Shown here: positions 33,988 through 50,645 of the stretch, piece after piece | Numbering within the stretch: the stretch's first letter is position 1 | Layout: every line of letters begins with the position of its first letter | Assembly (NCBI RefSeq): GCF_007290395.2 | Contig: NZ_CP041656.2 | Coordinates: 2,108,001 to 2,172,000, forward strand | Direction: 5' to 3' | DNA: 64,000 nt | From: Bradyrhizobium cosmicum | Lineage (GTDB): Bacteria > Pseudomonadota > Alphaproteobacteria > Rhizobiales > Xanthobacteraceae | Notes under the pieces: generated by a model | The model's input: only the letters and a program-made list of their open reading frames with translations | Databases searched by the model: none | What the model was told of the DNA's origin: nothing | Program-made: the position numbers and the translations under genes

Positions 33988-34956
33988 CTACGCGGCTGCG
34001 CCGGCCATCCAGTCGTTGTCCGAAACGGGACGCCGTCGCGGCGCAACGTCCGTGGCCGGCCGTTCGTTCTTGCTGGCGAGGCGCCAGCGCGCCGGGGACT
34101 GGCCGCTGATGCGCTTGAACACGGTGGAAAAATGCGCCTGGGTGCTGAAGCCGACGGCGAGTGCGATTTCGGCCAAGGGCCGCCCGGTCGTCGCGAGCAT
34201 CCGCTTGGCATGCTCGATGCGGTGATTGAGCAGGTATTCGCGCGGACGATAGCCGGTCGCGGCGCGGAATTGTGCCGCAAAGTGCATCCTGGAGAGGCCC
34301 GCGACGTTGGCGAGCTCGGACAGGCTGATGCAGCGGTCGAAATGATCTCCGATGTATTGCTCGACGCGCCGCAGCCGCCATTTCGGCAAGGCATTGACCT
34401 TGGCGCGCGGCGGCTCGAGCCGGGTGAGATGCATCGCAAGAGTCTGGCCGACGCAGCGCGCGAATTCGTGGTCCGTGGCGTCGCCATGCTCGATCAGCGC
34501 TTTCGCGAGCTCGGCGGCGAGCGGATCGCGCAGCAAGACGAGGTCATTCAATGCTTCCGCAGCAGGCGCTGCGAAATGATCCGCGGGAATGTGGACGTGC
34601 AGGAAAGCGCAGGGGCCCTGGAACTGGACGCGGAGGGGCTTCGACGGTGCGCTGACATACAGCGTACCTGCCGGCATCGTGCCGTCGTAGATGATCTGAC
34701 GGTCTCGGGTGAGCTTCGCGCGCGTGGTCTTCATGGCGATGCCGACGAAATAGCGGTTTTCAGGCGTTGTCGCCTCATGCGACGAAGTGTCTCGGGACTC
34801 CTCCCAGTGAGAGATCGTGATGTCCGCCCCCGGGTGGTGGTTGACCTCGCGCCATCGTCTCTCCCGGGGGATCTGGTACGTCTTGTGCGAGACCTCGCGA
34901 TTCCGCCGAGCCGGAAGTTCAATCCAGGCATGCGCCACTTGCAAGTCGTTGAACAT
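33988..34956 (-). CDS. AraC-family transcriptional regulator
   Basis: 322 residues from the ATG at 34956, which follows GAGAGGGGA; an ATG at 35022 is open but has no ribosome site. The N-terminal ~200 residues are an unassigned effector domain (ADITISHWEESRD, GTLYVSAPSKPLRVQFQGPCAFLHVHIP). The C-terminal ~100 residues carry both AraC helix-turn-helices: SLSELANVAGLSRMHFAAQFRAATGYRPREYLLNHRIEHAKRML and PLAEIALAVGFSTQAHFSTVFKRISGQSPARWR. A CTAAC decamer array lies about 100 bp upstream (35058-35082), so the gene is probably part of, and may control, the local regulon. Confidence 0.9.
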   Translation of the reverse strand: MFNDLQVAHAWIELPARRNREVSHKTYQIPRERRWREVNHHPGADITISHWEESRDTSSHEATTPENRYFVGIAMKTTRAKLTRDRQIIYDGTMPAGTLYVSAPSKPLRVQFQGPCAFLHVHIPADHFAAPAAEALNDLVLLRDPLAAELAKALIEHGDATDHEFARCVGQTLAMHLTRLEPPRAKVNALPKWRLRRVEQYIGDHFDRCISLSELANVAGLSRMHFAAQFRAATGYRPREYLLNHRIEHAKRMLATTGRPLAEIALAVGFSTQAHFSTVFKRISGQSPARWRLASKNERPATDVAPRRRPVSDNDWMAGAAA

Positions 34957-35057
34957 CGCTTGTCCCCTCTCTTCGTGGCCGCTGGCGGCGACCGGCGATT
35001 GCTTTTGACCCATGCTGTCCATGGTCAGAGGATAGGCGTGAGCCGGACAAGAAGCCC

Positions 35058-35082
35058 GTTAGTGGTGATTAGGAGGTGTTAG
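35058..35082 (-). promoter_or_regulatory. CTAAC decamer array 1 (upstream of AraC gene)
   Basis: On the plus strand GTTAG (35058), ATTAG (35068) and GTTAG (35078) are spaced exactly 10 bp apart. Read in the direction of the AraC gene they are CTAAC, CTAAT and CTAAC, and the gene-proximal unit is CTAACGGGC. It lies 102 bp from the AraC ATG. TATCCT, -10-like, begins 23 bp after the proximal pentamer. Confidence 0.7.
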
Positions 35083-35251
35083 ATTTTGTGCGAACGCAGA
35101 TGGTGTGACAGCCCGCCGCAGAGCGTTTGATTTTGCGTAGCTTTTCAACTATTTGCGCTGATTGGCGCAGTGTGAGGACGCTGCAATGGATCACATGGCG
35201 ATTGATGCGCCTATGTGAGGGCGGCCGTTCCCCTGCTGGACCGCGCATCGA

Positions 35252-35269
35252 TGGCGACTATAGTCGCCA
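35252..35269. promoter_or_regulatory. Perfect 18-bp palindrome over a -10 element
   Basis: TGGCGACTATAGTCGCCA is identical to its reverse complement and contains TATAGT, a good -10 hexamer. It lies 29 bp before the start of the first winged-helix STAND gene, so it is a likely operator-promoter for that gene. A weaker inverted repeat, TGCGC/GCGCA (35154-35169), is upstream. The remaining intergenic sequence (34957-35297) holds decamer array 1 and nothing else that I recognise. Confidence 0.6.
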
Positions 35270-35297
35270 CGCATTTGAATGAAGTGGTCATCAGGAT

Positions 35298-38183
35298 GTG
35301 TCAGAAGTGACCGAGCTCTCGGGACATAGCTCCCCTGGCAATGGCGCCGGAGCGAGCCCTGATCTCGATATCGTCTCGTTTGGACCGTTTTCCTTGCGGT
35401 CGCGGCTGCTCGAAAAGGACGGTGTTCCGGTCAAGCTCGGCAGCCGCGCGATGGATATCCTGCGCCTGCTCGTCAGCCGCGCCGGCGAAGTGGTGCCGAA
35501 GAACGAGATCCTGAGCTACGCGTGGTCGGGCCTCGCCGTCGAGGAGATCAGCCTGCGCGTCCATGTCGCGGAGCTGCGCAAGGTGCTTGGCGACGGCAGG
35601 GACGGAGCCCGCTACATCACCAACGTTCCGAGCCGGGGCTATTGCTTCGTCGCGCCCGTGCAACGTGGCGAGCGCAACGCGGCTCCGGCACCCGCGTCGC
35701 GTGCACCTGAAAGAACGGTCCCTGCTGCAGCCTTGCCGCACAGGCTGGACCGGATGATCGGTCGCGACGACGTGCTGCCGGAGTTGTCGGCCCGTCTGCT
35801 CGCCGACCGCTTCGTCACGCTGCGCGGGCCGGGCGGAATCGGCAAGACCACCGTTGCGACCGCGCTCGCCCACGAGATGTGGCAGGCTTTCGAGGGCAAC
35901 ATTCATTTCCTTGAATTCGGTCCGCTGAAGGACGCTGCGCTGGTCTCGAGCACGGTTGCCGCCGCTCTCGGCCTCGTCGTGCATCACGACGATCCCTCAG
36001 GCAGCATCATCAATTTCCTGCGCGGGCGGCGGCTGCTTCTGATCTTCGACAGTTGCGAGCACGTCATCGACGAGGTCGCGCGTCTGGCGGAGAACATCTA
36101 TCGCGAGGCGCCCGCTATCGCGATCCTCGCCACCAGCCGCGAGTCGCTGCTGGTGGAGGGCGAGCAGATTTTTGAGCTGGTTCCGCTGCCGGGCCCGCCA
36201 CAAGGCGCACGCCTCAGCGCCGATGAGGTGCTGGACTATCCGGCCGTACGCCTGTTCGTCGATCGCGCCGCCGCCGCGGGTCATCGCGGCGATATCACGG
36301 ATGAGGATGCCGAGGTTCTCGCCGAAATCTGCGGCAAGCTCGACGGCATTGCGCTCGCGATCGAACTCGCCGCCGTCCGCGTCGGCGTCTACGGATTGCG
36401 CGAGATGGCCGCGCTGCTCGACTCCAGGCTCAAGCTCGAATGGCGCGGACGGCGGACGGCACCGCCGCGGCAGCAGACGTTGGGCGCCACGCTCGACTGG
36501 AGCTTCGGCCTGATCGGCGAGAGCGAACGCACGGTGTTTCAGCGGCTTGCCGTCTTCGCGGGCCCCTTCACGCTCAAGGGCGCGATCGCGGTTGCGACAG
36601 ACGATGGCGCACCGGCTGACCGTGTCGTCGATGCTCTGGAGCAACTGGTGGCCAAATCGCTGGTGTCAGCGCAGCCTGATGGCGCCTCGCGGCGCTATCG
36701 CCTGCTGGACGCCACGCGCGCCTACGCCATGCAGAAGTTGGCCGACGGTGGCGAGGCGGACGCGATCGCACGTCGTCACGCAGCCTATATTCAACGCACA
36801 CTCGAAGCTGGCATGGCCGGGCAGGGCGGTGACCCGGCCGCCCGCCTGCCGGAGCGCGCGAGCCTGCTCGCCGATGCCCGCGCGGCGCTGGAATGGAGTT
36901 ATGCCGGCGAGGACGGCACCACCTTGCGTGTTCCGCTTGCCGGCAGTGCCGTAAGGCTGTTCGTCGAGCTCAACCTGCTCAACGAGGCGCGGATCTGGTC
37001 CGGCCGTGCGCTTGCCGTGCTCGATGACGCCAATCAGGGTGGTCGATGGGAGCTTGAGCTGCAATCGACGCTCGGTCACACCTTCATGTTCACGGAGCGC
37101 AACAGCGAGCAGGCCGAGGCGGCGCTCCGTCGCGGGCTGGAGATCGCAGAAGCACTTTCCGATCACGCCAATGCGTTCAGGCTGCTGTCGCGGCTGAACA
37201 TGTTCTATCGCCGCACCGGCGACTACCGGCATCTGGTGCCGACCGCGCTTCAAGCCGAGCGCATCGCGCGCCAGATCGGCGATACCGCGGGCATTGCCGG
37301 CAGCAAGGCATTGCTCGGCGTATCCTATCATCTCGCCGGAGACCAGGCCGAGGCGCAGGCCCATCTTGACGAAGGCGTGCGTGACGATGCCGCGCTGCGT
37401 GGGACGCAACCCGGGCATTTCGCCTATGCGCGCACGCCGCAGATTCCACTCGCGCGCGTATTATGGCTGCGCGGACTTCCCGACCGGGCGCTCGACTGCG
37501 TCCGCCCGCTGGTCGGCGCCGCCGCGCCGCGCGACGTCGTGATGCATTGCATCGCTTTATGCTGGTCGTCCTCGGTGTTCGGCTGGACCGGCGACTGGGC
37601 CGCCGTCGAGACCATGACGGGGCGCCTCGCGACGCATGCAAACGTGCATGGGCTTGCGCCTTACGAGGCCGTCGCGACCGGCTTTCGCGCGCAGATCATG
37701 ATTGCCCGCGGCGAGGTGGCCGGCGGCATCGACTTGCTGCGGAGCGCGCTGCCGCGCCTGCACGCGGATCGCTACGAGCTCTACGCTTCAGCGTTCGCTG
37801 CGGACCTTTCGCTGGGACTGACCGCGCTGGGACGCGTGGCGGAAGGCCTCGATGTCCTGCACGAGACCATCGCGCGCGTCGAGCAGGGTGGCGGCGGTTT
37901 TGACATGCCGGAGCTGCTCCGCAGGCGCGGCGACATCGAGACGCTCACCGGCGATTTCGATGCCGCCGAATCGAGTTTTGCTTCGTCACTCGCGCTGGCG
38001 GAGAAGCAGGGCGCATTGTCCTGGCGACTGCGGACCGAGATGTCGCTTGCAGCGCTTCGACGTCAGCGCGGCGCCAGCAACCCGCTCAGGGATCTCGCCG
38101 CGACCTATGCGCGCTTCACGGAAGGATTCGAGACAGCCGACCTGAAGGCGGCGCGGCTCATGCTCGAGGAGCCGTCTGTATGA
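35298..38183 (+). CDS. Winged-helix STAND ATPase regulator 1 (OmpR-type wHTH, NB-ARC-like, TPR)
   Basis: 961 residues. Residues 25-118 are an OmpR/PhoB-type winged helix (ISLRVHVAELRKVLGD, ARYITNVPSRGYCFV). An NB-ARC-like ATPase follows: Walker A GPGGIGKTT (177-185), Walker B LLLIFD (D251), ILATSRESLL near 276, and KLDGIALAIELAA near 347. The rest is helical with TPR-like repeats. There is no receiver domain or membrane segment. By analogy with AfsR and MalT, ATP-driven assembly should control DNA binding. The start is a GTG at 35298, or the GTG at 35307, which is better spaced from AGGA. It is one of three paralogues in the window. Confidence 0.88.
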   Translation: MSEVTELSGHSSPGNGAGASPDLDIVSFGPFSLRSRLLEKDGVPVKLGSRAMDILRLLVSRAGEVVPKNEILSYAWSGLAVEEISLRVHVAELRKVLGDGRDGARYITNVPSRGYCFVAPVQRGERNAAPAPASRAPERTVPAAALPHRLDRMIGRDDVLPELSARLLADRFVTLRGPGGIGKTTVATALAHEMWQAFEGNIHFLEFGPLKDAALVSSTVAAALGLVVHHDDPSGSIINFLRGRRLLLIFDSCEHVIDEVARLAENIYREAPAIAILATSRESLLVEGEQIFELVPLPGPPQGARLSADEVLDYPAVRLFVDRAAAAGHRGDITDEDAEVLAEICGKLDGIALAIELAAVRVGVYGLREMAALLDSRLKLEWRGRRTAPPRQQTLGATLDWSFGLIGESERTVFQRLAVFAGPFTLKGAIAVATDDGAPADRVVDALEQLVAKSLVSAQPDGASRRYRLLDATRAYAMQKLADGGEADAIARRHAAYIQRTLEAGMAGQGGDPAARLPERASLLADARAALEWSYAGEDGTTLRVPLAGSAVRLFVELNLLNEARIWSGRALAVLDDANQGGRWELELQSTLGHTFMFTERNSEQAEAALRRGLEIAEALSDHANAFRLLSRLNMFYRRTGDYRHLVPTALQAERIARQIGDTAGIAGSKALLGVSYHLAGDQAEAQAHLDEGVRDDAALRGTQPGHFAYARTPQIPLARVLWLRGLPDRALDCVRPLVGAAAPRDVVMHCIALCWSSSVFGWTGDWAAVETMTGRLATHANVHGLAPYEAVATGFRAQIMIARGEVAGGIDLLRSALPRLHADRYELYASAFAADLSLGLTALGRVAEGLDVLHETIARVEQGGGGFDMPELLRRRGDIETLTGDFDAAESSFASSLALAEKQGALSWRLRTEMSLAALRRQRGASNPLRDLAATYARFTEGFETADLKAARLMLEEPSV

Positions 38184-38192
38184 GCCGGCTCA
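38181..38192. terminator. 12-bp palindrome carrying both stop codons of convergent genes
   Basis: TGAGCCGGCTCA is a perfect palindrome. Its first TGA ends the plus-strand STAND gene, and the complementary TGA ends the minus-strand gene at 38190. The RNA hairpin would be short and has no T-tract, so a terminator role is uncertain. Confidence 0.35.
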
Positions 38193-38909
38193 GTCAAATC
38201 GAAAATCTGAAAGATCGATCGACACCATCAGCTCATCGCGCAGCGGCATCAGGTCGTCTCCGCGTAAATAGACACGCCGGCGCGTCGGCAGCCTGAAGCC
38301 GTCAACACTGACGGGCTCGGACACATATTGCGCCACCGGAAAATTGCCAGCGATCTCGACCCTGTAGTCGTGCCGGCGGATCAGCATGTCGGGGCCAAAA
38401 TATAAGTCCTGCTCGCGGCCATGGCTTGCGATCATGGCCGGGAACGTCGCGCGCAATCCGCGCCAGACTTCGGTGCCCTCGCGCCACGGTTCGATCTCGC
38501 GGACCTCGAACCCGTCCAAGGCGAGCAGGAAAGGCGTCGTCACGTAGGTCCACAGTGCGTAGGCGTTGAAATAGGCGCGATGCAGCAGGTCCCAATGTGT
38601 CCGCATGTCGTGGCGCGCAAACGCGGCGCGTGGATTGTTGCGCATTGCGACGATCCGTCCGTCCGCGGCGACGATGGCGATCCGCTCGGGGCTGAACTCG
38701 GCGCGCTGGCCCGGCTTGACGAACGGCTCGATCGATGCCCGCTCGCGCTGTAGCTCGATCCGCATCGTCCGCGGCGCCTGGTCCTGGTCGACGCCCTTCA
38801 GCGCCCAGAGATCGCCTCCCGTCACGATCGTGGCGGTGAGCCGCTGATGAGCATTCCATCGACCGAGGCCGCCATGGGCCTCGATCGCATTCGCCAGCAG
38901 CGGAATCAT
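38190..38909 (-). CDS. Protein of unknown function, family shared with 42031-42738 (copy A)
   Basis: 239 residues, no signal peptide. I do not recognise a named family. It begins LLANAIEAHGGLGRWNAHQRLTATI and continues with beta-rich sequence, including FSPERIAIVAADGRIVAMRNNPRAAF, FNAYALWTYVTTPFLLA, WREGTEVWRGLRATFP, DLYFGPDMLIRRHDY and RLPTRRRVYLRGDD. That pattern recalls LolA/outer-membrane lipoprotein-sorting-like beta folds. It is clearly homologous to the protein at 42031-42738: both have the GG+ARWN/GRWN start, TTPFLLA/TNPFLLA, PWRE and the FPxxI block. GAGAGGGAA precedes the ATG. It is convergent with STAND gene 1 and has decamer array 2 upstream. Confidence 0.8.
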   Translation of the reverse strand: MIPLLANAIEAHGGLGRWNAHQRLTATIVTGGDLWALKGVDQDQAPRTMRIELQRERASIEPFVKPGQRAEFSPERIAIVAADGRIVAMRNNPRAAFARHDMRTHWDLLHRAYFNAYALWTYVTTPFLLALDGFEVREIEPWREGTEVWRGLRATFPAMIASHGREQDLYFGPDMLIRRHDYRVEIAGNFPVAQYVSEPVSVDGFRLPTRRRVYLRGDDLMPLRDELMVSIDLSDFRFD

Positions 38910-38977
38910 CCGGCCATTCCCTCTCGCATCGGTGGTGTTGCCCCAATGGAGATACCGCCGCGCGCAAACGATCGCCC

Positions 38978-39002
38978 GTTAAGCGTTGTTAAAGGCCGTT
39001 GG
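38978..39002 (-). promoter_or_regulatory. CTAAC decamer array 2
   Basis: On the plus strand GTTAA (38978), GTTAA (38988) and GTTGG (38998) are spaced exactly 10 bp apart. Read toward the minus-strand gene they are CCAAC, TTAAC and TTAACGGGC. The array is 69 bp upstream of the ATG at 38909. TATCTC begins 23 bp after the proximal pentamer, the same offset as the TATCCT of array 1. Confidence 0.7.
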
Positions 39003-39013
39003 CTGGCCCGCCG

Positions 39014-40057
39014 CTAAGCCTCTGCCATGACGTCGAGCACCGCGTCGGCAAAGGCCTTCGGCGCCTCCTGCGGCAGATTGTGTCCGATGCCGCCCTTGAT
39101 GGTCCGGTGCGAACAGCGTCCGGTGAACTTCTTGGCGTAGGCGGACGGCTCGGGGTGCGGCGCCCCGTTGGCGTCACCCTCCATGGTGATGGTGGGCACC
39201 GTGATGACGGGCGCCTGCGCCAGCCGCGCCTCGTCGTCGGCATATCTTGCTTCGCCTTCGGCAAGACCGAGCCGCCAGCGATAATTATGGATTACGATCG
39301 CGACATGGTCCGGATTGTCGAACGCCCTGGCGCTGCGATCGAAAGTGGCGTCGTCGAAGTGCCATTGCGGCGAGGCGAGCTGCCAGATCAACTTCGAGAA
39401 ATCATGGCGGTACTTGTCGTAGCCTTCTTGGCCGCGCTCGGTCGCGAAGTAAAACTGGTACCACCATTGCAGCTCGGCCTTCGGCGGCAGCGGCATCTTG
39501 CCGGCCTGCTGGCTACCGATCAGATAGCCGCTTACAGAGACCATCGCCTTGACCCGCTCTGGCCGCAGCGCTGCAATGACGTTGGCGGTCCTTGCGCCCC
39601 AGTCGAAGCCGGCGATCGTGGCCTTGTCGATCCTGAGTGCGTCCATCAGCGCAACGATGTCCGCGGCGATCGCCGCCGGCTGCCCGTTCCGCATCGTTGC
39701 GTCGGACAGGAGGCGCGTGCTGCCGTAGCCGCGCAGATAGGGAATGATCACGCGATGGCCGGCCGCAGCGAGCAGCGGCGCGACATCGACGAAGGCGTAG
39801 ATGTCGTACGGCCAGCCGTGCAGCAGGATTACGGGTGGGCCGTCGGCGGGACCTGCCTCGGCATAACCGACGTTGAGCAGGCCGGCGTCGATCTGCTTCA
39901 GGGACGCGAACGAAGTGTTGGCTCCCGGCTTGATGATCGCGGCGGTTTTCGCCGGCTTGGCATCAGCCGCCGTGCTCAGCGGAAGCTGGGTCGCTGCAAG
40001 AGTTATTGCCGCGCCAGAGAAGAAGCGGCGGCGTTCACGATTGACGGTGTCGGACAT
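39014..40057 (-). CDS. Exported alpha/beta hydrolase (epoxide hydrolase-like)
   Basis: 347 residues from the ATG at 40057 (AGGAGA upstream). The N-terminus RERRRFFSGAAITLAATQ is a twin-arginine-type signal. The hydrolase fold shows the oxyanion HGWPYD, the nucleophile in AGFDWGART (aspartate, as in epoxide hydrolases and dehalogenases) and the catalytic His in GGIGHNLPQEAP. It is the last gene of a three-gene minus-strand unit headed by the DJ-1/PfpI gene. A detoxification role fits the context; the substrate is unknown. Confidence 0.88.
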   Translation of the reverse strand: MSDTVNRERRRFFSGAAITLAATQLPLSTAADAKPAKTAAIIKPGANTSFASLKQIDAGLLNVGYAEAGPADGPPVILLHGWPYDIYAFVDVAPLLAAAGHRVIIPYLRGYGSTRLLSDATMRNGQPAAIAADIVALMDALRIDKATIAGFDWGARTANVIAALRPERVKAMVSVSGYLIGSQQAGKMPLPPKAELQWWYQFYFATERGQEGYDKYRHDFSKLIWQLASPQWHFDDATFDRSARAFDNPDHVAIVIHNYRWRLGLAEGEARYADDEARLAQAPVITVPTITMEGDANGAPHPEPSAYAKKFTGRCSHRTIKGGIGHNLPQEAPKAFADAVLDVMAEA

Positions 40058-40096
40058 GTCAGTCTCCTGTGGTCGTAGCATTGCGCAGATCGTTGT

Positions 40097-41053
40097 TCAG
40101 TCGTTGTGCCCGTCCAGCCGCCCAAGGAAGTCGCGGACGCGCGCGGCGATTTCATCGGTCGCTTCGTCGAGCGCGAAGTGACCGGCTTCGAGAATGTGAA
40201 CCTCGGCTTCCGGGACATCGTCGCGGTAGGCTGAAGCGCCCGCCACAGTGAAGGACGGGTCGTACTTGCCCCAGACCACCAGCGTCGGCGGCCGTGTCTT
40301 GCGGAGCCAGTCCTGCCACTTCGGATAGGAGGCGACGTTGGTCCGGTAATCCAGGAACAGTGTGGTCTGAATTTCGGGCTGGCCGGGACGCGTCAGGAAT
40401 GAATATTCGTCGTTCCAGGTGTCGGGGTCGTAGCGCTCCGGGCGCGGGCTTGAGCCGAGATGCCGCTGGCGCGTTGCCTCCAGGGAAGTGAAGTTGGCCT
40501 TGAGTGCTTCGAGTTCGTTTGCCGGATCCGCCCAGTATTTCCTGCGGGCGGCCCAGAGCGGGCTCAGGCCCTGCTCATGCGAGACGGCATTCTGGATCAC
40601 GATGGCGCGTACGCGCTCGGGATGCGCCAGCGCCATGCGGAAGCCGACCGGCCCGCCATAGTCCTGCATGAACAGGATGTAGTTGGTGAGGCCGAGCCTG
40701 TTGGTGAGTTCGCCCATCACGCCGGCGATGCTGTCGAACGTGTAGGTAAAGTCGGACGGTGGCGGCGCGCTGCTGTTGCCAAAGCCGGGATAATCAGGCG
40801 CGATCAAGTGATATTTGTCGGCAAGCAGCGGCAGCAATGGCTCCCACATCCGCGACGAGGAGGGAAAGCCGTGCAGCAGCAGCACGGTCGGCGCGTCGGC
40901 AGGTCCAGCCTCGCGATAGAAGATCTCAAGGCCCTTGATATCGATGGTGTGATAGCTGATCGAGCGCCGGCTCGATCGCAGATCTTCTGCCGAAGCCTGC
41001 ACGGTGGTGCAGGTCAATGCGGCGGAGAGGGCGAGGGTGGCTGGAATGTTCAT
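40097..41053 (-). CDS. Exported alpha/beta hydrolase (haloalkane dehalogenase/epoxide hydrolase-like)
   Basis: 318 residues from the ATG at 41053 (GGGAG upstream), with a Sec signal (NIPATLALSAALTCTTVQASAEDL). The catalytic set is HGFPSSSRMWEPL (oxyanion), FMQDYGGPVGFRMA (nucleophilic Asp), VVWGKYDPSF (acid) and EAGHFALDE (His). The cap region carries WNDEYSFLTRPGQPEIQTTLFLDYRTNV, typical of this dehalogenase/epoxide-hydrolase group. It lies between the DJ-1/PfpI gene and a second alpha/beta hydrolase gene, 39 nt from the latter. Confidence 0.88.
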   Translation of the reverse strand: MNIPATLALSAALTCTTVQASAEDLRSSRRSISYHTIDIKGLEIFYREAGPADAPTVLLLHGFPSSSRMWEPLLPLLADKYHLIAPDYPGFGNSSAPPPSDFTYTFDSIAGVMGELTNRLGLTNYILFMQDYGGPVGFRMALAHPERVRAIVIQNAVSHEQGLSPLWAARRKYWADPANELEALKANFTSLEATRQRHLGSSPRPERYDPDTWNDEYSFLTRPGQPEIQTTLFLDYRTNVASYPKWQDWLRKTRPPTLVVWGKYDPSFTVAGASAYRDDVPEAEVHILEAGHFALDEATDEIAARVRDFLGRLDGHND

Positions 41054-41133
41054 GTCATCGCTCCCTTGTGGGCGTGTCGCGTCGAGAGGCGCCGCCGCGC
41101 TGGGCGCCTCTCGAAATCTGGCCGCATCCGAAA

Positions 41134-41960: not shown

Positions 41961-41983
41961 GTTAGCTCGTTATGTATTGTTAG
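41961..41983 (-). promoter_or_regulatory. CTAAC decamer array 3 (upstream of DJ-1/PfpI operon)
   Basis: On the plus strand GTTAT (41969) and GTTAG (41979) are 10 bp apart, with an extra GTTAG at 41961. Read toward the gene they are CTAAC and ATAACGAGC. The proximal unit ATAACGAGC is the same as in arrays 6 and 7. The decamer pair lies about 134 bp from the ATG at 41835. A further CCAAC sits 7 bp distal to the outer pentamer, as also seen in array 4. Confidence 0.65.
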
Positions 41984-42030
41984 GCGTTGGGAGGGAGCGT
42001 TATCCGGCGTCCGCGCCTGCCGCGTCGTCG

Positions 42031-42738
42031 CTACTCGAAGACGGCGTCGAAGATCTCGACATCCATCAGCACGGGTTTTGCAATCACGGTTCCGTCAGGC
42101 CGCAGCGTTTGCGCACGTCGAAGTGTCGGCACGACGATGCCGCCGAAACTGTCATGCGCCCAGGAGTAATGCGCGACCTTCATCCCGAAGAGATCGTGAT
42201 CGGTCCGCCGTTGCAGGCCGTTCTCGTCGAAATAGAAGATCTGCTCGGGCGCGAGCGTGATCACGCTCGGCGGGAACTGCGCCCGCAGCCGTCGCCATGT
42301 TTCCGCGTTCTCGCGCCACGGCGCCAGTTCCTCCACCACCACATCGGGGTGGGCGAGCAGGAATGGATTGGTCAGATAACTCCAGATCGCGACGCCACAG
42401 AAGAAGACGAGGTGCAGTTCGTCCGCCAGCGACGCAGAGCCGGCCTCAGGAAACGCAAGGCTCGGATCGCGCCAGCTCCGCAACACTTCGCCCTCCGGGC
42501 TTTCGATGGTGATCGCGTCGGGTTGAAAGGAGCCGGAATGTTCGCCGCCCGTAATGCCGGTGAAGCGGACTGACTGCGTGCGGGTCGAACCTTCCGCGGT
42601 CACATCCTTGAATTCGCTGGCATGTCCGGCGCTGGAAAACAGCGTTCCGGCAACGGAGAGGTGGAGCGTGAACCGGCTCAAGCTATTCCAGCGGGCGATT
42701 CCGCCGCTGGCATCAATTACGTCGTCAAGCAGCGCCAT
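42031..42738 (-). CDS. Protein of unknown function, family shared with 38190-38909 (copy B)
   Basis: 235 residues, no signal peptide, no named family recognised. It starts LLDDVIDASGGIARWNSLSRFTLHLSVAG and continues with FQPDAITIESPEGEVLRSWRDPSLAF, FFCGVAIWSYLTNPFLLA, WRENAETWRRLRAQFPPSVI, QIFYFDENGLQRRTDHD and a C-terminal VPTLRRAQTLRPDGT. It lines up block for block with copy A. Both copies lie at the 3' end of a winged-helix STAND gene: copy A convergent with the first, copy B immediately downstream of the second on the same strand. Decamer array 4 lies 60 bp upstream of the ATG. Confidence 0.8.
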   Translation of the reverse strand: MALLDDVIDASGGIARWNSLSRFTLHLSVAGTLFSSAGHASEFKDVTAEGSTRTQSVRFTGITGGEHSGSFQPDAITIESPEGEVLRSWRDPSLAFPEAGSASLADELHLVFFCGVAIWSYLTNPFLLAHPDVVVEELAPWRENAETWRRLRAQFPPSVITLAPEQIFYFDENGLQRRTDHDLFGMKVAHYSWAHDSFGGIVVPTLRRAQTLRPDGTVIAKPVLMDVEIFDAVFE

Positions 42739-42797
42739 GTCCCGCCATATCCACCATGAATTGCAACCACCATGGCGGGGCGGATGCGGCTTGGCGT

Positions 42798-42812
42798 GTT
42801 AGAAGTTGTTAG
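42798..42812 (-). promoter_or_regulatory. CTAAC decamer array 4
   Basis: On the plus strand GTTAG (42798) and GTTAG (42808) are 10 bp apart. Read toward the minus-strand gene they are CTAAC and CTAACACGC. A GCAAC lies 7 bp distal to the outer unit. The proximal unit is 60 bp upstream of the ATG at 42738 and 45 bp past the stop of STAND gene 2, so it belongs to the downstream gene. Confidence 0.65.
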
Positions 42813-42856
42813 GAGTTGCGAGCGGGGATTCTGGCGGTATCCCGTTGAAGATACTG

Positions 42857-45700
42857 TCAATTCAGCGCGCCAAGCAGCTCTTTGGCGGCGACCAGATCGC
42901 GGGTCTGGAGGCCTTCCTGGTATCGCGCGACGAGCGGGGCGAGCAGGGCGCGTGCGTCGCCGGCTTTTCCGGCCTCGCGCCAGACCCGGCCGAGGCTGAT
43001 GGCGCCGCGCAATTCCCAGCCGAGCGCGCACTGCCGGCGTGACAGATCGAGCGATGTCTGCAAGCAGCTCTCGGCCGCCGCCGCCTTGCCCGACCGGGCC
43101 AGGATGTCGCCCCTGACCCTGAGCATCTCCGGCATGTCGAAGGATTCGCCGTGATCGGGAACCTCCGCGATGGCCTCGTCGATCGTGCGCAAGGCCTCAT
43201 CGGGCTGGTTCTGCGCCGCGAGACCCTCCGCGAGCGCGGTCGCGAACACCGTCGTCATGATCCGGTGCCGCGTTGCGTACAGCGTTGCCTGACCGCGGCG
43301 AAGGTGCTCGATCCCGCCGGCGATATCGCCACGGCGAAGCAGCAGCTCGCCTTTCTGGCCGATGCCGACGGCGTGGTAGGGGCCGAGGAAGTGCCGCGCC
43401 GAATGATCGATCAGCCGCTCGATCAGGATTTCCGCATTGGCCCAGTCGCCGACCCACAGGAACACATAGATCGTCCAGATCAGGGAGATGCCGAGGGTGA
43501 GCGGCTGTTCGAGCAGTTCGGCCTCGCGCACCGTGTATCTCGCCGCCTCGACCGCGCGATCGGGCCGGCCGGTGAGCCAGAGACCGCGCGCCAGCGCCAC
43601 CAGCGCGACGATGCGGTCGTCATAGCCGAGATGGCCGATATTCAGCCGCTGCGAGCCGGGATTATGCACCATCGCGCTCTCGCAGAACTGCACGGCCTTG
43701 TCCTGGTTGCCGATCAGATGATGCGCGACGCCCAGCATCCATTCGACGTTCAGCGCGGCGGCGGGGTCGTTCAGCTTGCGCGCGACGCTCTCGCCCTGCG
43801 TACCGGTCCCGAGCGCACCGTGAAAGTCGCCGACCCTGGTCAGGTAGATGTGCAATCCGCGCAGCAGCCAGAGCTGCCAGTGCAGATCCTCGAGCTCCTG
43901 CGCGAGCTGGAGGCTGCGCGTGAACGCAGCACGGACCGCTTCGGTATTGCCCTGCGTGAACATCACGGAGACGCCGAGCGCGGCCTGCAGCGTCATCTCC
44001 TGACGGCTGTCGATTGCGCTCGTATCGAGGGACGTCAATGCCTGCTGCGTCCAGCGATAGCATTCCGTCAGCAATGTCAGCTCGAGGAAGAACTGCGCCG
44101 CCGAGGCTGCAAGGTCCACGCCGATCGACCGGTCGCCGCCGTCCGAAAAGCTCCAGGTCAGTGCGGCCCGGACATTGGGCAGGTGGTCGGCATAGGGAAG
44201 GAAGCCGCCCGCGGTCTGCATGCCCGAGGATTTCAGCGCAATGTCGCGCAGGACGTCGCGGAAGTAGTTGGCGTGCGCCCGTGCCACGCGGGGCACTTCG
44301 CCGTGCTCGACGAGCTTGTTGCCGGCGAAGGCGCGCGTGGTGTCGAGCAGGCGGTAGCGCAGCCGACGCTCCGCTGGCGAGGTCGCGATCAGGGATTTGG
44401 AGAGCAGATTCGAGATTGCCTCGACCGCCTCGGGCTCGCTGATGCCCTGGCTGGATGCAACGGCAAGCGACGCCTCCAGCGTGAACGGCCCGACGAACAC
44501 CGACAATCCGCGCAGCGTTGCGCTCTCCGCGGCCGGCAGCAGATCGTAGCTCCAGGCGAGCGCCGCGCTCAGGGTCTGGTGCCGCGGGATCGCGGTTCGC
44601 CGCCCGCGCCACAGCAGCGAGAAGCGGCTGTCGAGCAGCGAGGCGGTCCCGGCAATGCCGTAGGCGTCCACGCGGCCGGCCGCGAGCTCGATCGCGAGCG
44701 CGATCCCGTCCAGCCGCCGGCAGATCTCGCCAACGAGCGGCGCGTCCTCTTCACTCAGCTCGAATTCGCCCAAACTCTCGGCAATGCGTTCGACGAATAG
44801 CTGGCTTGCGGGATAGGCAAGGATATCGGCAATGCTGAGCCCGTCCCCCTGAGGCGGACAATCCAGCGGAAACAGCCGGTGGACGCGCTCGCCCTCGGAG
44901 CGAAAGGACTCGCGGCTGGTGGCGAGAATATGCAGCTCGGGGGCCTCCTGGACGATGCGCTCGGCCAATGGCGCGAGCTCGTCGAGGATGTGCTCGCAAC
45001 TGTCGAAGACGAGCAAAGTTCGCCGGCTGCGCAGCACCGTCAGCAGGCCCGGCATCGGGTCGTCTGAATTGACGGTCAGCCCGAGCGTGGCCGCGATGGT
45101 GCCGGGAATCAGCCTTGTATCCGTCAGCGCGCCGAAGTCGACGAAATTCACGTGGCCGTCGAAGGCCTGGAGCTCGCCATGCGCGACGGCGAGGGCGACC
45201 GAGGTCTTGCCGATGCCGCCGGGGCCGACGATTGTGACGAAGCGATGCTGGGCCAGCTCGGCGCGAATCCTGGCAACCGCATCGTCCCGTCCGATCATCT
45301 TCGCGAGCGGCGAAGGGAGTGAACGCGGGGCCGGGACAGGCGGGCTCGTCCCTTTCCCCGCCGATTCCGTCCGAAGCAGCGGAGCCGCCAGGCAATAGCC
45401 GCGCCCGGGGACGTTGACGACGTAGCGGGAGCCTTCGCCGGCATCCCCCAAGGCCTTGCGCAGTGTCGTGATGTGGAACCGCAGGCTGCCTTCGTCGACC
45501 GTCACGTCGGCCCAGACGCGTTTGATCAACTCTCGCTTGTCGATGACCTCGCCGGCGTGCTCGGCAAGAAAAATGAGGATATCGAGCGCGCGGCCGCCGA
45601 GGTGAAGCGGAGCGCCGTCCTTCTCGAGCAGGCGCGACTTTGGCAGCAGCCGGAATGGCCCGAAGGAAATGGCCGAATCCTGATCGTGAGTGTCCGGCAC
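42857..45700 (-). CDS. Winged-helix STAND ATPase regulator 2 (OmpR-type wHTH, NB-ARC-like, TPR)
   Basis: 947 residues from a GTG at 45700. The frame is open to an ATG at 45829, but the GTG matches the start of regulator 3 and the DNA above it looks promoter-like. The winged helix is at residues 10-108 (ISFGPFRLLPKSRLLEKDG, GSLRFHITTLRKALGD, VVNVPGRGYC). Walker A is GPGGIGKTS (159-167), followed by TLLVFDSCEHILD, ILATSRESFRSEGERV and RRLDGIALAIELAAGRVDAYGIAGTASLLDSRFSLLWRGRRTA. The C-terminal half is helical, TPR-like. It is much closer to regulator 3 than to regulator 1. The ribosome site at the GTG is weak. Confidence 0.87.
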   Translation of the reverse strand: MPDTHDQDSAISFGPFRLLPKSRLLEKDGAPLHLGGRALDILIFLAEHAGEVIDKRELIKRVWADVTVDEGSLRFHITTLRKALGDAGEGSRYVVNVPGRGYCLAAPLLRTESAGKGTSPPVPAPRSLPSPLAKMIGRDDAVARIRAELAQHRFVTIVGPGGIGKTSVALAVAHGELQAFDGHVNFVDFGALTDTRLIPGTIAATLGLTVNSDDPMPGLLTVLRSRRTLLVFDSCEHILDELAPLAERIVQEAPELHILATSRESFRSEGERVHRLFPLDCPPQGDGLSIADILAYPASQLFVERIAESLGEFELSEEDAPLVGEICRRLDGIALAIELAAGRVDAYGIAGTASLLDSRFSLLWRGRRTAIPRHQTLSAALAWSYDLLPAAESATLRGLSVFVGPFTLEASLAVASSQGISEPEAVEAISNLLSKSLIATSPAERRLRYRLLDTTRAFAGNKLVEHGEVPRVARAHANYFRDVLRDIALKSSGMQTAGGFLPYADHLPNVRAALTWSFSDGGDRSIGVDLAASAAQFFLELTLLTECYRWTQQALTSLDTSAIDSRQEMTLQAALGVSVMFTQGNTEAVRAAFTRSLQLAQELEDLHWQLWLLRGLHIYLTRVGDFHGALGTGTQGESVARKLNDPAAALNVEWMLGVAHHLIGNQDKAVQFCESAMVHNPGSQRLNIGHLGYDDRIVALVALARGLWLTGRPDRAVEAARYTVREAELLEQPLTLGISLIWTIYVFLWVGDWANAEILIERLIDHSARHFLGPYHAVGIGQKGELLLRRGDIAGGIEHLRRGQATLYATRHRIMTTVFATALAEGLAAQNQPDEALRTIDEAIAEVPDHGESFDMPEMLRVRGDILARSGKAAAAESCLQTSLDLSRRQCALGWELRGAISLGRVWREAGKAGDARALLAPLVARYQEGLQTRDLVAAKELLGALN

Positions 45701-46029
45701 GCGCCAATGATTCCAGGTGGAAGGGCTAGTGTCTGTCGATTGATCTACCAGAACGAGGTCGGGAGTAAACTGGCCGAAAGTGGCGAAATCGCGCGGCAAC
45801 CGGCCGACCGCCCCGGCAATAACCGTCATAAATTTTGCTTAAACGCGAGCGGCTTACGGAGCCGGTGAGACAATTTGTCAGCTTGGCTGACCGTCGAGAC
45901 CACGGTCACGCCGCCAAATTGCGCTGCAGCCGATCATAACAAAATCTTGCAACGTCTAACGAGCAAAACACGCGCGGTGGATCCACTATAGCCTTCGACT
46001 TAGGTCCTACGTTCAACGGGGAGGCTATC
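45701..46029. other. Divergent region between STAND regulator 2 and the HisKA_2 kinase
   Basis: This holds the putative promoter block of regulator 2 (about 45735-45790), which is conserved upstream of regulator 3, and decamer array 5 (45936-45960). A 10-bp palindrome GTGGATCCAC (45977-45986) abuts TATAGC, a possible -10 for the kinase gene. If regulator 2 starts at the ATG at 45829 instead, the first ~130 bases are coding. Confidence 0.5.
45936..45960 (+). promoter_or_regulatory. CTAAC decamer array 5 (upstream of HisKA_2 kinase)
   Basis: ATAAC (45936) and CTAACGAGC (45956) are two turns (20 bp) apart, with a degenerate CTTGC at the middle position. A GCAAC lies 7 bp before the proximal unit. 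The orientation is toward the kinase gene, whose ATG is 70 bp away. It is also about 240 bp upstream of the divergent STAND regulator 2. Confidence 0.55.
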
Positions 46030-46698
46030 ATGTCCGCCATCGGCTCCAGGCCCAACGACGACGTCGTGCGATCCCAGTATCTCGCCAGTCTCGATGAACA
46101 GTCGCGTGATTGGGAACTCGTGTTACGGGAATCCCACCATCGGATGAAGAACACGCTGACGCTGCTGGGTGCGTCAGTCCGCCGCGATTTCACGCGGGCC
46201 GGCGCCAGGGACGTGTCGATCGCGGTAGACCGCTTCGAGCGGCGCCTGGTCGCCTTCGGCAGGCTCTATCAGCTTTTGTCCGACAGCGACGATGTGTCCG
46301 CCGTGGATGTCGAAGCCTTCTTCGAAAACCTGTGCGCAGCGCTCTCGGACGCGGTGCTGGAGCCGGCGGGCATCCGCTGTGAAGCTGCGATCGAAAGCGG
46401 CACGCTGTCGGCGTCGCAACGTCATCGGCTCGCGCTGATGCTGACAGAGCTGGTCACCAATGCGGCAAAGCACGCTTTCCCGACCAGGAATGGTGCACTG
46501 ATCCGCATCGAGGTCGCCAATCATGATGACGCCTGGTTCTGCACGGTGGCCGACAACGGGATCGGCGCGACCGGTCCGCTTCAGGGCACTGGCAGCCGCA
46601 TCCTCGAAGGGCTCGCCCGCAGCATCCACGCACGGTTGCAAGGCGAAGCCGGGCAAGGCGGCACGCGGGTGACCATCGTGATGCCGGCCGCCGCTTGA
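46030..46698 (+). CDS. Minimal soluble histidine kinase (HisKA_2/HATPase)
   Basis: 222 residues with only the transmitter. The HisKA_2 box is ESHHRMKNTL with the phospho-accepting His at about residue 37. The HATPase N-box is LMLTELVTNAAKHAF, with G-box pieces VADNGIGA and GTGSRILEGL. There is no PAS, GAF or membrane segment, so any sensing must come from a partner protein. Kinases of this group often act in the general stress response (PhyR-NepR-EcfG) of alphaproteobacteria, but no phyR, nepR or ecfG gene is nearby. GGGGAGG precedes the ATG, and decamer array 5 lies 70 bp upstream. Confidence 0.88.
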   Translation: MSAIGSRPNDDVVRSQYLASLDEQSRDWELVLRESHHRMKNTLTLLGASVRRDFTRAGARDVSIAVDRFERRLVAFGRLYQLLSDSDDVSAVDVEAFFENLCAALSDAVLEPAGIRCEAAIESGTLSASQRHRLALMLTELVTNAAKHAFPTRNGALIRIEVANHDDAWFCTVADNGIGATGPLQGTGSRILEGLARSIHARLQGEAGQGGTRVTIVMPAAA

Positions 46699-46720
46699 AG
46701 ACCGCTTCTGCTCGCAATCG

Positions 46721-46745
46721 CTAACGAGCCATAACATCCCATAAC
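46721..46745 (+). promoter_or_regulatory. CTAAC decamer array 6 (upstream of VOC gene)
   Basis: CTAACGAGC (46721), ATAAC (46731) and ATAACGAGC (46741) are three in-phase repeats exactly 10 bp apart, pointing toward the VOC-family gene whose ATG is 86 bp downstream. This is one of the two clearest arrays. Confidence 0.75.
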
Positions 46746-46830
46746 GAGCAATCTTCCCCGGTCTGCATGAAGGTGATCGTGTAGACAGCGGGATCGGCCC
46801 GAGCCCGCGCTTCACATCAGGGAGTTCGAC

Positions 46831-47520
46831 ATGGCCACGACAGACATCGACCGCGACACTGCGGCTAAGCCTTCCAAACAGCATAGCGTTGATCTCAAGC
46901 TCGAAGTCGTCGTCATCCCGGTGTCGGATGTCGACCGCGCCAAGGCGTTCTACACGCGCCTCGGCTGGCGACTGGACGCCGATTTTGCCTCGGGCGACGA
47001 ATGGCGTGTGATCCAGTTCACGCCGCCGGGCTCGGCCTGTTCGGTGATCTTCGGCAGGAACGTCACTGCGGCGGCGCCGGGTTCGGCGCGCGGGCTGTAC
47101 CTGATCGTGTCCGATCTGGAGCTGGCCCGAAAAGATCTGCTCGATCGCGGCATTGAGGTCAGCGGCCCCTTCCACGGTGGCGGTGACGTTCACGCCGGGC
47201 CTGACGAGCCGTATCTGTCCGGCAGCCTCCGGGTCAGCGGTGTTGATCTGAAGCGCGGCAGCTATGGTTCGTTTGCGTCATTCAGCGATCCCGACGGCAA
47301 CGGCTGGCTGCTCCAGGAGATCACCACGCGACTGCCGGGACGCATCGAGGGCGGCAGCACGAACTTCGCGTCAACGACCGATCTGGCCGCAGCCATGCGC
47401 CGCGCGGCGGCGGCGCATGGCGAGCATGAGAAACGGATAGGCGGACACGACGAGAACTGGGCGGATTGGTACGCCGACTACATCGTTCGCGAGCAGGCGG
47501 GGCAGCCGTTGCCGTCCTGA
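46831..47520 (+). CDS. VOC-family protein (glyoxalase/bleomycin-resistance-like)
   Basis: 229 residues. Residues about 25-165 form one vicinal-oxygen-chelate domain: LEVVVIPVSDVDRAKAFYTRLGWRLDADF, VIQFTPPGSACSVIFG, GLYLIVSDLELARKDLLDRGIEVSGPF and FASFSDPDGNGWLLQEI, where the last Glu is the usual metal ligand. A charged helical tail follows, ending WADWYADYIVREQAG. VOC proteins include glyoxalases, dioxygenases and resistance proteins. Here the stress context suggests electrophile handling, but the reaction is not assignable. AGGGAG precedes the ATG. Confidence 0.88.
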   Translation: MATTDIDRDTAAKPSKQHSVDLKLEVVVIPVSDVDRAKAFYTRLGWRLDADFASGDEWRVIQFTPPGSACSVIFGRNVTAAAPGSARGLYLIVSDLELARKDLLDRGIEVSGPFHGGGDVHAGPDEPYLSGSLRVSGVDLKRGSYGSFASFSDPDGNGWLLQEITTRLPGRIEGGSTNFASTTDLAAAMRRAAAAHGEHEKRIGGHDENWADWYADYIVREQAGQPLPS

Positions 47521-47652
47521 GCGGCAGCGAACGCATCTTTCGACTTGGGCTGACACGGCGCGCAATGACATGGTCGTTGCGCGCCGTGTCGCATCGGATC
47601 GCGTGCGTTTTCACCATTGCCTGCATTGTTGCATCGCGCAGACTCGCAACGG

Positions 47653-47677
47653 TTAACGCACCCTAACAATGCATAAC
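47653..47677 (+). promoter_or_regulatory. CTAAC decamer array 7 (upstream of epoxide hydrolase gene)
   Basis: TTAAC (47653), CTAAC (47663) and ATAACGAGC (47673) are exactly 10 bp apart, pointing toward the epoxide hydrolase gene with its ATG 101 bp downstream. The segment from the second repeat onward is almost identical to array 3 read in its own gene direction (CTAACAAT.CATAACGAGC). Confidence 0.75.
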
Positions 47678-47777
47678 GAGCAAACCGTCGGTGCCTGCGC
47701 CAATCTCCCTGCATGAGGAAACGACGCGTTGATTTGAAATCGGTCGGCATCACCGATCAAAGCCAGGGAGATCCAGC

Positions 47778-49091
47778 ATGACCACGCAAGCACGTACCGA
47801 CGTTCTGAACCCCGACCGCCGTCAACTGTTGAGCCAGGCCGCGATGACCGCGGTTGCCGCCGGCGTCGCGAGCCTGCTGCCGCTGCATCGGGCAGAGGCA
47901 GCAGCCAGCGGCGCGATCCGCCCGTTCCATGTCAGTGTGCCCGAGGAAGATCTGCTCGATCTGCGCCGCCGCCTCGCGGCAACGCGCTGGCCGGATCGCG
48001 AGATCGTCGCAGACCAGTCGCAGGGTATTCAGTTGAAGACGGTGCAGCAGCTCGTGCGCTATTGGCAGAACGACTATGACTGGCGCAAGATGGAAGCGCG
48101 GCTCAACGCGCTGCCGCAATTCGTCACCGAGATCGACGGCATCGACATCCACTTCATTCACGTCCGTTCCAGGCACCAGAATGCGCTGCCGATGATCGTC
48201 ACGCATGGCTGGCCGGGTTCGATCATCGAGCAGATGAAGATCGTCGGCCCGCTCACCGATCCGACCGCGCATGGCGCGAAGGCGGCGGACGCCTTCGATC
48301 TCGTGATCCCCTCGCTCCCCGGTCACGGTTTTTCCGGCAAGCCGACGGCGCTCGGCTGGGATCCGCAGCGCATCGCGCGCGCCTGGATCGTGCTGATGAA
48401 GCGCCTCGGCTACAGCCGCTACGTCGCGCAGGGCGGCGATTGGGGCAATGCCGTCACCGAGCAGATGGCGGTGATCGCGCCGCCGGAATTGCTCGGCATT
48501 CACACCAACATGCCCGCCACCGTCCCCGACGATATCGCCAGGGCGCTCCAGCCCGGCGGATCGCGGCCGGCGAACCTCTCGGCCGACGAGCGCGTTGCCT
48601 ACGATCAGCTCGATGATTTCTACAAGCACGGCCTTGGCTATGCGATCGAGATGTCGAACCGGCCGCAGACGCTCTACGGTCTCGTGGACTCGCCGTCCGG
48701 CCTCGCGTCCTGGATGCTCGATCACGACGCGCGCAGCGCCGCGATGATTGCGCGCGTCTTCGACGGCAAGACGGAGGGGCTGTCGCGGGACGATGTGATC
48801 GACAACGTCACGCTTTATTGGCTCACCAACACAGCGGTGTCGTCGGCGCGGCTCTACTGGGAGAACAAGCTGGTGTTCTTCGAACCCAAGCACATCAAGA
48901 TCCCGGTCGCCGTCAGTGTCTTCCCGGACGAGATCTATGCCGCGCCGCGGAGCTGGGCTGAGAAGGCTTATCCGAAGCTGATGCACTACAACCGCCTCGA
49001 CAAGGGCGGCCACTTCGCTGCCTGGGAGCAGCCCGCGCTGTTCACCGCGGAAATGCGCACCGCATTCCGCCCACTGCGCCAATCGATCTGA
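47778..49091 (+). CDS. Exported epoxide hydrolase (EHN-domain family)
   Basis: 437 residues. An N-terminal signal has RRQLLSQAAMTAVAAGVASLLP, twin-arginine-like. Residues about 47-150 are the epoxide-hydrolase N-terminal (EHN) domain: IRPFHVSVPEEDLLDLRRRLAATRWPD and VRYWQNDYDWRKMEARLNALPQF. The alpha/beta hydrolase core has THGWPGSIIEQ (oxyanion), QGGDWGNAVT (nucleophilic Asp) and KGGHFAAWEQP (His). It opens epoxides to diols. GGGAGA precedes the ATG. It is the first gene of a plus-strand unit that continues with an enoyl-CoA hydratase and probably the OsmC-cupin-MsrA genes. Confidence 0.9.
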   Translation: MTTQARTDVLNPDRRQLLSQAAMTAVAAGVASLLPLHRAEAAASGAIRPFHVSVPEEDLLDLRRRLAATRWPDREIVADQSQGIQLKTVQQLVRYWQNDYDWRKMEARLNALPQFVTEIDGIDIHFIHVRSRHQNALPMIVTHGWPGSIIEQMKIVGPLTDPTAHGAKAADAFDLVIPSLPGHGFSGKPTALGWDPQRIARAWIVLMKRLGYSRYVAQGGDWGNAVTEQMAVIAPPELLGIHTNMPATVPDDIARALQPGGSRPANLSADERVAYDQLDDFYKHGLGYAIEMSNRPQTLYGLVDSPSGLASWMLDHDARSAAMIARVFDGKTEGLSRDDVIDNVTLYWLTNTAVSSARLYWENKLVFFEPKHIKIPVAVSVFPDEIYAAPRSWAEKAYPKLMHYNRLDKGGHFAAWEQPALFTAEMRTAFRPLRQSI

Positions 49092-50624: not shown

Positions 50625-50645
50625 CCGACAAAGGGGAATGCTGCC

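Follow-up and report, generated by a model that had tools for sequence, protein, structure and literature searches.

Tandem 10-bp repeat arrays as probable operators of winged-helix STAND regulators in a Bradyrhizobium cosmicum gene cluster

Introduction

A 64,000-nucleotide stretch of the Bradyrhizobium cosmicum genome (assembly GCF_007290395.2, contig NZ_CP041656.2, positions 2,108,001 to 2,172,000), here called the window, carries a gene cluster in which seven arrays of TAAC-bearing repeats lie in 10-bp register, each upstream of a gene or putative operon. The genes that follow the arrays encode an AraC-family regulator, a histidine kinase, several enzymes and two related proteins, unk1 and unk2. 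Among and beyond them stand three genes for STAND proteins (S1, S2 and S3), in which an N-terminal winged helix is joined to an NB-ARC-type NTPase and tetratricopeptide repeats (TPR; Table 1). The phased arrays are real, and we propose, with a probability of about 0.8 on the strength of sequence comparison, that they are the operators of the neighbouring S1, S2 and probably S3 proteins, which would activate a detoxification regulon from the -35 region, a fourth paralogue (S4) having its own version of the site elsewhere.

Table 1. Arrays, candidate -10 hexamers and genes of the cluster, in window coordinates
Feature	Position	Strand	Remarks
Array 1, upstream of AraC gene	35053..35082	-	CTAACACCTC CTAATCACCA CTAACGGGCT; array at 37/37 orthologues
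Array 2, upstream of unk1	38973..39002	-	CCAACGGCCT TTAACAACGC TTAACGGGCG; 9/9 orthologues
Array 3, upstream of DJ-1 and alpha/beta hydrolase genes	41964..42003	-	ATAACGCTCC CTCCCAACGC CTAACAATAC ATAACGAGCT; 16/16 DJ-1 orthologues
Array 4, upstream of unk2	42793..42822	-	CTCGCAACTC CTAACAACTT CTAACACGCC; 63/63 orthologues
Array 5, upstream of HisKA_2 kinase	45936..45965	+	ATAACAAAAT CTTGCAACGT CTAACGAGCA; 59/59 orthologues
Array 6, upstream of VOC gene	46711..46750	+	CTCGCAATCG CTAACGAGCC ATAACATCCC ATAACGAGCA; weakly conserved, 17/57
Array 7, upstream of epoxide hydrolase gene	47643..47682	+	CTCGCAACGG TTAACGCACC CTAACAATGC ATAACGAGCA; 43/43 orthologues
S1, STAND regulator, proposed binder	35298..38183	+	Trans_reg_C winged helix, NB-ARC with GPGGIGKT, TPR
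S2, STAND regulator, proposed binder	42857..45829	-	open frame; architecture as S1; winged helix starts near residue 50
S3, STAND regulator, probable third binder	56348..59650	-	open frame; beyond the range of the first-pass annotation; winged helix 77/100 identical to S2
-10-like hexamer TATCCT	35029..35034	-	+27 from proximal TAAC of array 1
-10-like hexamer TATCTC	38949..38954	-	+27 from array 2
-10-like hexamer CAGATT	41940..41945	-	+27 from array 3
Candidate -10 region, array 5	45984..45992	+	CACTAT at +27, TATAGC at +30; family best is +30
-10-like hexamer CAATCT	47701..47706	+	+27 from array 7
AraC-family regulator, array 1 target	33988..34956	-	domain match
unk1, array 2 target	38190..38909	-	no Pfam match; 29% identical to unk2
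DJ-1/PfpI gene and two alpha/beta hydrolase genes, array 3 targets	39014..41835	-	putative operon
unk2, array 4 target	42031..42738	-	LolA/LolB/RseB-like predicted fold; no Pfam match
HisKA_2/HWE-type histidine kinase, array 5 target	46030..46698	+	no further domains detected
VOC/glyoxalase-superfamily protein, array 6 target	46831..47520	+	domain match
Epoxide hydrolase and enoyl-CoA hydratase-like genes, array 7 targets	47778..50000	+	putative operon

Structure of the arrays

Inspection of the window sequence finds the seven arrays where a first-pass annotation had placed them, each oriented to its gene. That annotation had argued against a chance origin, and the counts agree: seven TAAC pairs spaced 10 bp apart lie within 34001-50000, whereas 500 dinucleotide shuffles hold 0.016 on average and never more than 1. 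TAAC follows TAAC at 10 bp in seven pairs of the window and at 20 bp in five; the other spacings from 5 to 30 bp total three pairs, one each at 8, 18 and 30 bp, all of them in array 3. The 7.27-Mb genome contains two exact triples of the form TAACN6TAACN6TAAC, both of them in the window, and none of the reversed form.

The repeat is a 10-bp unit, CTnnCAACnn, rather than a bare pentamer, and is present in three or four copies, the last of which reads hTAACGRGC. When 39 arrays from the window and from stretches of ten relatives are aligned on the gene-proximal TAAC, the units take the forms CTnnCAACnn, CTAACAAnnn and the terminal hTAACGRGC, with units of the CTCGCAACGG type likewise in register, and arrays 4, 6 and 7 carry an additional in-register unit, CTCGCAAynn, in front. 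Some details of the first description change. Three exact NTAAC units had been reported for arrays 1, 2, 6 and 7; this holds for arrays 6 and 7, whereas the middle unit of array 1 is CTAAT and the first of array 2 is CCAAC. Array 3 is longer than had been noted, reaching 42003, with ATAACGAGCT (41973-41964) as its gene-proximal unit, and the CTAAC at 41965-41961 is off register, 8 bp away. In six of the seven arrays the proximal TAAC runs on into GRGC, as stated there (array 4 has ACGC), and the distance from array to start codon is about 60-148 bp instead of 60-135 bp.

Conservation in relatives

The spacing is kept across the genus. A scan with S2 gave 66 Bradyrhizobium loci, which include one Frankia-titled record and one pair from a metagenome-assembled genome. 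Their TAAC pairs number 214 at 10 bp and 163 at 20 bp, with no more than nine at each remaining distance between 4 and 40 bp and none at 11 bp; the reversed control word CAAT peaks at neither 10 nor 20 bp in the same loci. A smaller sample (20 stretches of 16-20 kb around STAND homologues from 17 genomes, two of the stretches being from the window's own genome) gives 26 pairs at 10 bp, 20 at 20 bp and 0-2 at each other distance over the same range, and its 10- and 20-bp pairs all lie in stretches with S1 or S2 orthologues, except for one pair each at loci L043 and L045. Some pairs of other 4-mers also scored strongly, for example TCGA at 21 bp, and were put down to coding periodicity. A record titled Frankia sp. 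RB7 (L106, JAUEPE010000001.1) has an S2 locus 85% identical to a Bradyrhizobium one, and its name is probably wrong.

Conservation upstream of orthologues with 10-bp phasing, which the first-pass annotation had named as a sign of support, is seen both in the 66-locus counts and in six promoter families. Sites scoring at least 11 of 16 stand upstream of unk2 in 63/63 loci (reversed-string control, 7/63), the kinase in 59/59 (22/59), the epoxide hydrolase in 43/43 (31/43), AraC in 37/37 (4/37), DJ-1 in 16/16 (3/16) and unk1 in 9/9 (3/9). The weaker families are VOC with 17/57 (13/57), and hence a poorly conserved array, abhA with 4/11 (2/11), abhB with 4/23 (6/23) and S1 with 0/15 (0/15). Median site scores exceed the control in the six families and in VOC, but not in abhA, abhB or S1. 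Thus abhA and abhB would be served, if at all, via the array before DJ-1. The absence of arrays from the STAND genes themselves, first observed in the window, recurs in other genomes: it applies to all 15 S1 loci, and none faces S2 in 56 loci, 54 of which have the kinase array. Identity reaches 0.97-1.00 in the TAAC columns as compared with 0.58-0.82 in the flanks of the same rows, a contrast to which the score-anchored rows contribute by favouring TAAC columns; uncurated alignments show the same conserved islands upstream of AraC and the kinase.

The strict pattern CTAACAAN3HTAACGRGC occurs in 6 of 11 Bradyrhizobium genomes and in 2 of 187 genomes of other genera in the family. Each of the latter two matches is a triple array; the first lies 216 bp ahead of an abhA homologue and the second about 4 kb from a STAND homologue on the same stretch. 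Around four Caulobacter homologues (36-37%) there is no TAAC pair at 10 bp and no clear alternative repeat; two of them have one pair at 20 bp.

STAND proteins as candidate binders

Which protein reads the arrays? S1, S2 and S3 are likely binders, S3 being a probable one. All three match Trans_reg_C, the OmpR/CadC-type winged helix (E 3.7e-14, 1.8e-16 and 2.5e-15, respectively), and have TPR matches in addition. NB-ARC is over the cut-off in S1 and S2 and under it in S3 (19.9 bits, cut-off 23.5), the P-loop motif GPGGIGKT being present in all three alike. The winged helices are identical in 77 of 100 columns between S2 and S3, in 48 between S2 and S4, and in 55 of 98 between S1 and S2; the closest solved structure to S2 by sequence is that of CadC (5ju7). 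Neither a BTA domain (Pfam, E 0.001) nor a receiver domain is matched in S1, S2 or S3. A search with S1 (E 0.001) gave matches in 25/25 genomes of a first genus set, 3 to 22 in each and many of them partial. PADLOC matched only S1 and S2, at E 8.2e-4 and 8.9e-4, and these matches were dismissed as noise.

The association of sites with these proteins was assessed in 195 Bradyrhizobium genomes by counting TAACN6TAACGRGC and listing orthologues of S2, S1 and the AraC protein. At least two sites are present in 55 of the 80 genomes with S1 or S2 and in 2 of the 115 without (Fisher p 2.6e-26, a guide only because the genomes are related), and at least one site in 69/80 versus 29/115. In one genome (G041; locus L070, G041:C38:5000-24999) S2 is missing between the kinase and unk2 genes at 12879-14702, the kinase, unk2 and AraC arrays are kept, and an S3 orthologue is present at 90%, which makes it a natural test of which STAND protein suffices.

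The first-pass annotation had named both the STAND and the AraC proteins as candidates. The STAND proteins fit, while the AraC protein has become an improbable binder. It would use its two helix-turn-helix motifs on adjacent turns, with array 1 being autoregulatory, and it does have the two motifs and an array at every one of its 37 loci. Moreover, its orthologue is associated with sites (at least two in 36/53 genomes with it versus 21/142 without), and sites occur in 2/2 genomes that have it and lack S1 and S2. Nevertheless, arrays remain where no AraC orthologue of at least 69% is found, namely in 8/9 of the genomes that have only S1, in 5/5 that have both S1 and S2, and in 11/15 that have only S2, which rules it out as a necessary binder despite its association with sites; more distant AraC relatives (about 60%) are present in some genomes. 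S4, described next, also counts against it, since the architecture recurs there with a different unit.

A second repeat code at S4

S4 is encoded at 835790-838591 of the same genome, opposite an OsmC-family gene. Comparison of two orthologous S4-OsmC gaps revealed a block, CTCACAATTT CTCACAAGTC CAAACGGGT, conserved in the two genomes, and the S4 10-bp array, CTCACAAnnnCTCACAA, adjoins 58 of 63 S4 orthologues (76% or more; 63 genomes). In these 58 genomes the CTCACAA array lies 140-240 bp from S4 and points away from it in 58/58, in the window's genome towards the OsmC-family gene. CTCACAAN3CTCACAA occurs 76 times, in 73 of the 195 genomes, and its reversed control in none of the 195; by genome, the array is present in 59/63 with S4 versus 14/132 without, 18 matches being not beside a listed S4. 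In one genome a CTCACAA array has, about 150 bp away, a STAND fragment (G010:C1:100301-101020; 49% over residues 25-211 of the S1 query), seemingly the remnant of an S4 gene whose operator has survived.

A change of STAND paralogue thus goes with a change of array type, which suggests that the STAND protein reads the site. A tree of 53 N-terminal regions places S4 as sister to six STAND proteins with support 1.00, and of these four have a CTAAC array at most 1.2 kb upstream, one has it within the locus and one has none. The recognition helix contains SLR or ALR in most CTAAC-associated STAND proteins and NLR in S4. At L043 (7153-7204) an array, CTAACATTTT CTAACGTAAT CAAACGGGCC, combines the S1/S2 unit with S4's third unit, and two STAND paralogues adjoin. 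At L060 and L061 (genomes G021 and G024) an array reading TTAAC/ATAAC/TTAACGAGC is conserved in front of an AraC-like gene of 197 codons' product length (197 aa), and STAND paralogues of another clade adjoin. A fifth protein of the window's genome, S5 (4434584-4437445), has no match at E 1e-250 in 194 other genomes, so that footprinting by comparison is not possible for it.

A wider picture can be drawn tentatively, and we hold it with less than even confidence: each Bradyrhizobium genome would contain several winged-helix STAND sensors resembling nucleotide-binding leucine-rich-repeat (NLR) proteins, each with its own 10-bp code, differing by single bases, and its own detoxification module. 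Such sensors might recognize xenobiotics or electrophiles and diversify as paralogues duplicate and their operators drift in step (CTAAC to CTCAC in the site, Ser to Asn in the recognition helix).

Target genes

Conservation and the association across genomes strongly support the co-regulated set proposed by the first-pass annotation; it had been described as local, and distant conserved sites also exist. Forty of these, among the matches listed for TAACN6TAACGRGC, were fetched: 20 precede genes for MOSC plus FAD/NAD/2Fe-2S reductase proteins, 8 a molybdopterin oxidoreductase (domains checked on two examples), one an epoxide hydrolase and one a gene 44% like that at 51668 of the window. The remaining ten are unclassified; three of them are one repeated site resembling coding DNA, and others stand before a fumarase-type lyase (L210) and a ferritin-like protein (L213). 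The two distant sites of the window's genome (1950863 and 4622182) precede genes of the MOSC-reductase and molybdopterin oxidoreductase kinds, and genomes G005 and G021 each have an array at a second epoxide hydrolase gene, one that lies outside the cluster. Detoxification or redox enzymes make up most of the targets, which makes an electrophile or an oxidant a plausible signal.

The predicted structure of unk2 (mean pLDDT 90) has a LolA/LolB/RseB-like sheet (3buu, E 1e-7), and no obvious signal peptide is apparent by eye at its N-terminus; a protein of this kind, encoded next to each STAND gene, may bind a greasy ligand in the cytosol. After the epoxide hydrolase unit come OsmC, cupin and MsrA genes (50202-51649), which stay by the cluster in several relatives and before which no array was seen in the window. 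An HlyD/CusB-type membrane fusion protein, encoded between the cluster and S3 (52670-53815), suggests an efflux module.

Promoter geometry and proposed mechanism

The arrays keep a preferred distance from a -10-like hexamer. Counted from the proximal T, +27 is the best offset of a TATAAT-like hexamer in the AraC, unk2, epoxide hydrolase, DJ-1 and unk1 promoters, and the promoter-family mean at +27 was reached by none of 20000 circular shifts. It is also the best offset in 42 S4 promoters (0.98, next 0.00) and in 20 MOSC promoters (1.36, next 1.10 at +9); no good hexamer was found at +27 from array 6 in the window. If a 17-bp spacer is assumed, the -35 element would begin at +4, on GRGC. The placement of the arrays would therefore be that of an activator substituting for the -35 element.

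Fixed distance from a -10-like hexamer could also mean that the arrays are extended promoter elements for an alternative sigma factor, such as that of the general stress response, with no activator, and the cluster kinase has a partial match to PhyK (68.9 bits, cut-off 750). This would leave unexplained the two to four units in 10-bp register, the change of unit with the paralogue and the association with STAND genes. Furthermore, promoter elements of extracytoplasmic function sigma factors consist of GGAAC and a CGTT-type element 16-17 bp apart, a pattern different from that of the arrays, and we regard this explanation as highly improbable. Slightly better than the AraC alternative, though still unlikely, is that the STAND proteins bind as repressors or share the sites with another winged-helix activator such as a response regulator: OmpR-family response regulators use similar tandem repeats, and a histidine kinase lies inside the regulon. 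On the other side, a position that starts shortly before -35 and extends onto it, at a fixed distance from -10, would be typical of activators, and at S4 the STAND gene is accompanied by a matched site, no kinase being needed.

Activation by the STAND proteins could proceed as follows. Their winged-helix domains would line up head-to-tail, one per 10-bp turn, on CTAACAAnn units, so that the array occupies the DNA just upstream of and onto -35 and the proximal unit with its GRGC extension touches the -35 position. The bound oligomer would bring RNA polymerase to promoters that possess a -10 and lack a good -35 element. On sensing the signal, the NB-ARC/TPR part would put the protein into its active state and so induce a dispersed regulon of DJ-1, VOC, epoxide and other alpha/beta hydrolases, the MOSC-reductase and the molybdopterin oxidoreductase, with the AraC gene, the histidine kinase and unk1/unk2 as further members. 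What is observed is the site architecture, its conservation, its co-occurrence with STAND genes, the paralogue-specific repeat and the preferred -10 spacing; from these we infer the binding, the oligomerisation, the signal, and that the effect is activation and not repression.

Several observations weigh against this scheme. Eleven of the 80 genomes with S1 or S2 have no strict-pattern site, and 29 of the 115 without either still carry at least one; when six site-bearing genomes of the latter kind were inspected (G019, G024, G041, G066, G106 and G186), five had a STAND homologue on the stretch that was fetched, and that of G106 stops at a contig edge. S1, S2, S3 and the targets mostly form one gene cluster in related genomes, so that co-occurrence is partly shared descent. 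The covariation of the recognition helix is imperfect, as L043 and L069 (L069_11370) have Asn helices near CTAAC arrays. The +27 offset is only second best in the kinase promoters (after +30) and in 8 SoxC-like promoters (after +26). Finally, an exact 6-mer scan of 17 STAND loci found no general excess of lag-10 repeats at paralogue loci (222 at lag 10, 206-218 at lags 8, 11, 13 and 14, and 460 and 598 at lags 9 and 12), because coding DNA dominates the counts.

A readable operator would give orphan STAND regulators predicted targets and a predicted sign of regulation. The S1-S3 and S4 repeats offer a two-paralogue pair for testing base recognition, and the array promoters a means to look for the inducing chemical.

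Comparison with known systems

The first-pass annotation knew of no described system with this site. Among the titles and abstract openings listed by literature searches there is indeed no description of the exact site or of its STAND regulators in Bradyrhizobium, whereas the architecture is in part known from OmpR/PhoB-type winged helices and from AfsR. STAND winged-helix regulators reading 10-bp tandem repeats would thus belong to a kind of system already known, of which the variant appears to be new.

PhoB/OmpR response regulators bind head-to-tail to tandem direct repeats of about one helical turn (11 bp for PhoB) in place of -35. They share with S1-S3 a winged helix of the same Pfam family and such repeats adjoining -35, but they have an N-terminal receiver domain, not matched in S1-S3, and no STAND/TPR part. 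CadC and ToxR likewise have an N-terminal winged helix; they differ in being membrane-anchored one-component regulators, whereas S1-S3 carry NB-ARC and TPRs. MalT resembles S1-S3 in its STAND NTPase and TPR-like sensor and oligomerises on DNA with several repeated sites; it differs in its C-terminal LuxR-type helix-turn-helix and its DNA boxes.

The nearest functional relative is AfsR of Streptomyces coelicolor. According to its description, this large Streptomyces antibiotic regulatory protein (SARP) joins an OmpR-type winged helix to a STAND NTPase (NOD) and TPR, ATP binding frees activation from the inhibition that the NOD and TPR domains exert, and the afs box has two direct repeats 11 bp apart between -40 and -19, SARP 3' repeats lying 8 bp from -10 (PMC10936776). 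The arrays and S1-S3 share with it the combination of winged helix, STAND NTPase and TPR and the direct repeats adjoining -35. AfsR differs in the BTA domain after its winged helix, unmatched in S1-S3, and in its two 11-bp repeats; here three or four 10-bp units end at +8, with -10 at +27, the targets are detoxification genes and the host is alphaproteobacterial. Nor do the arrays follow the SARP repeat rule (11 or 22 bp, 3' repeat 8 bp from -10), their spacing being 10/20 bp with -10 at +27. Because the BTA domain, the 11-bp repeats and the repeat position differ from those described for AfsR, the arrays' system is not a SARP. If our proposal is true, proteobacteria have here a counterpart to AfsR that differs from it in promoter geometry, and through which part of a large unstudied family of NLR-like bacterial STAND sensors becomes readable from sequence.

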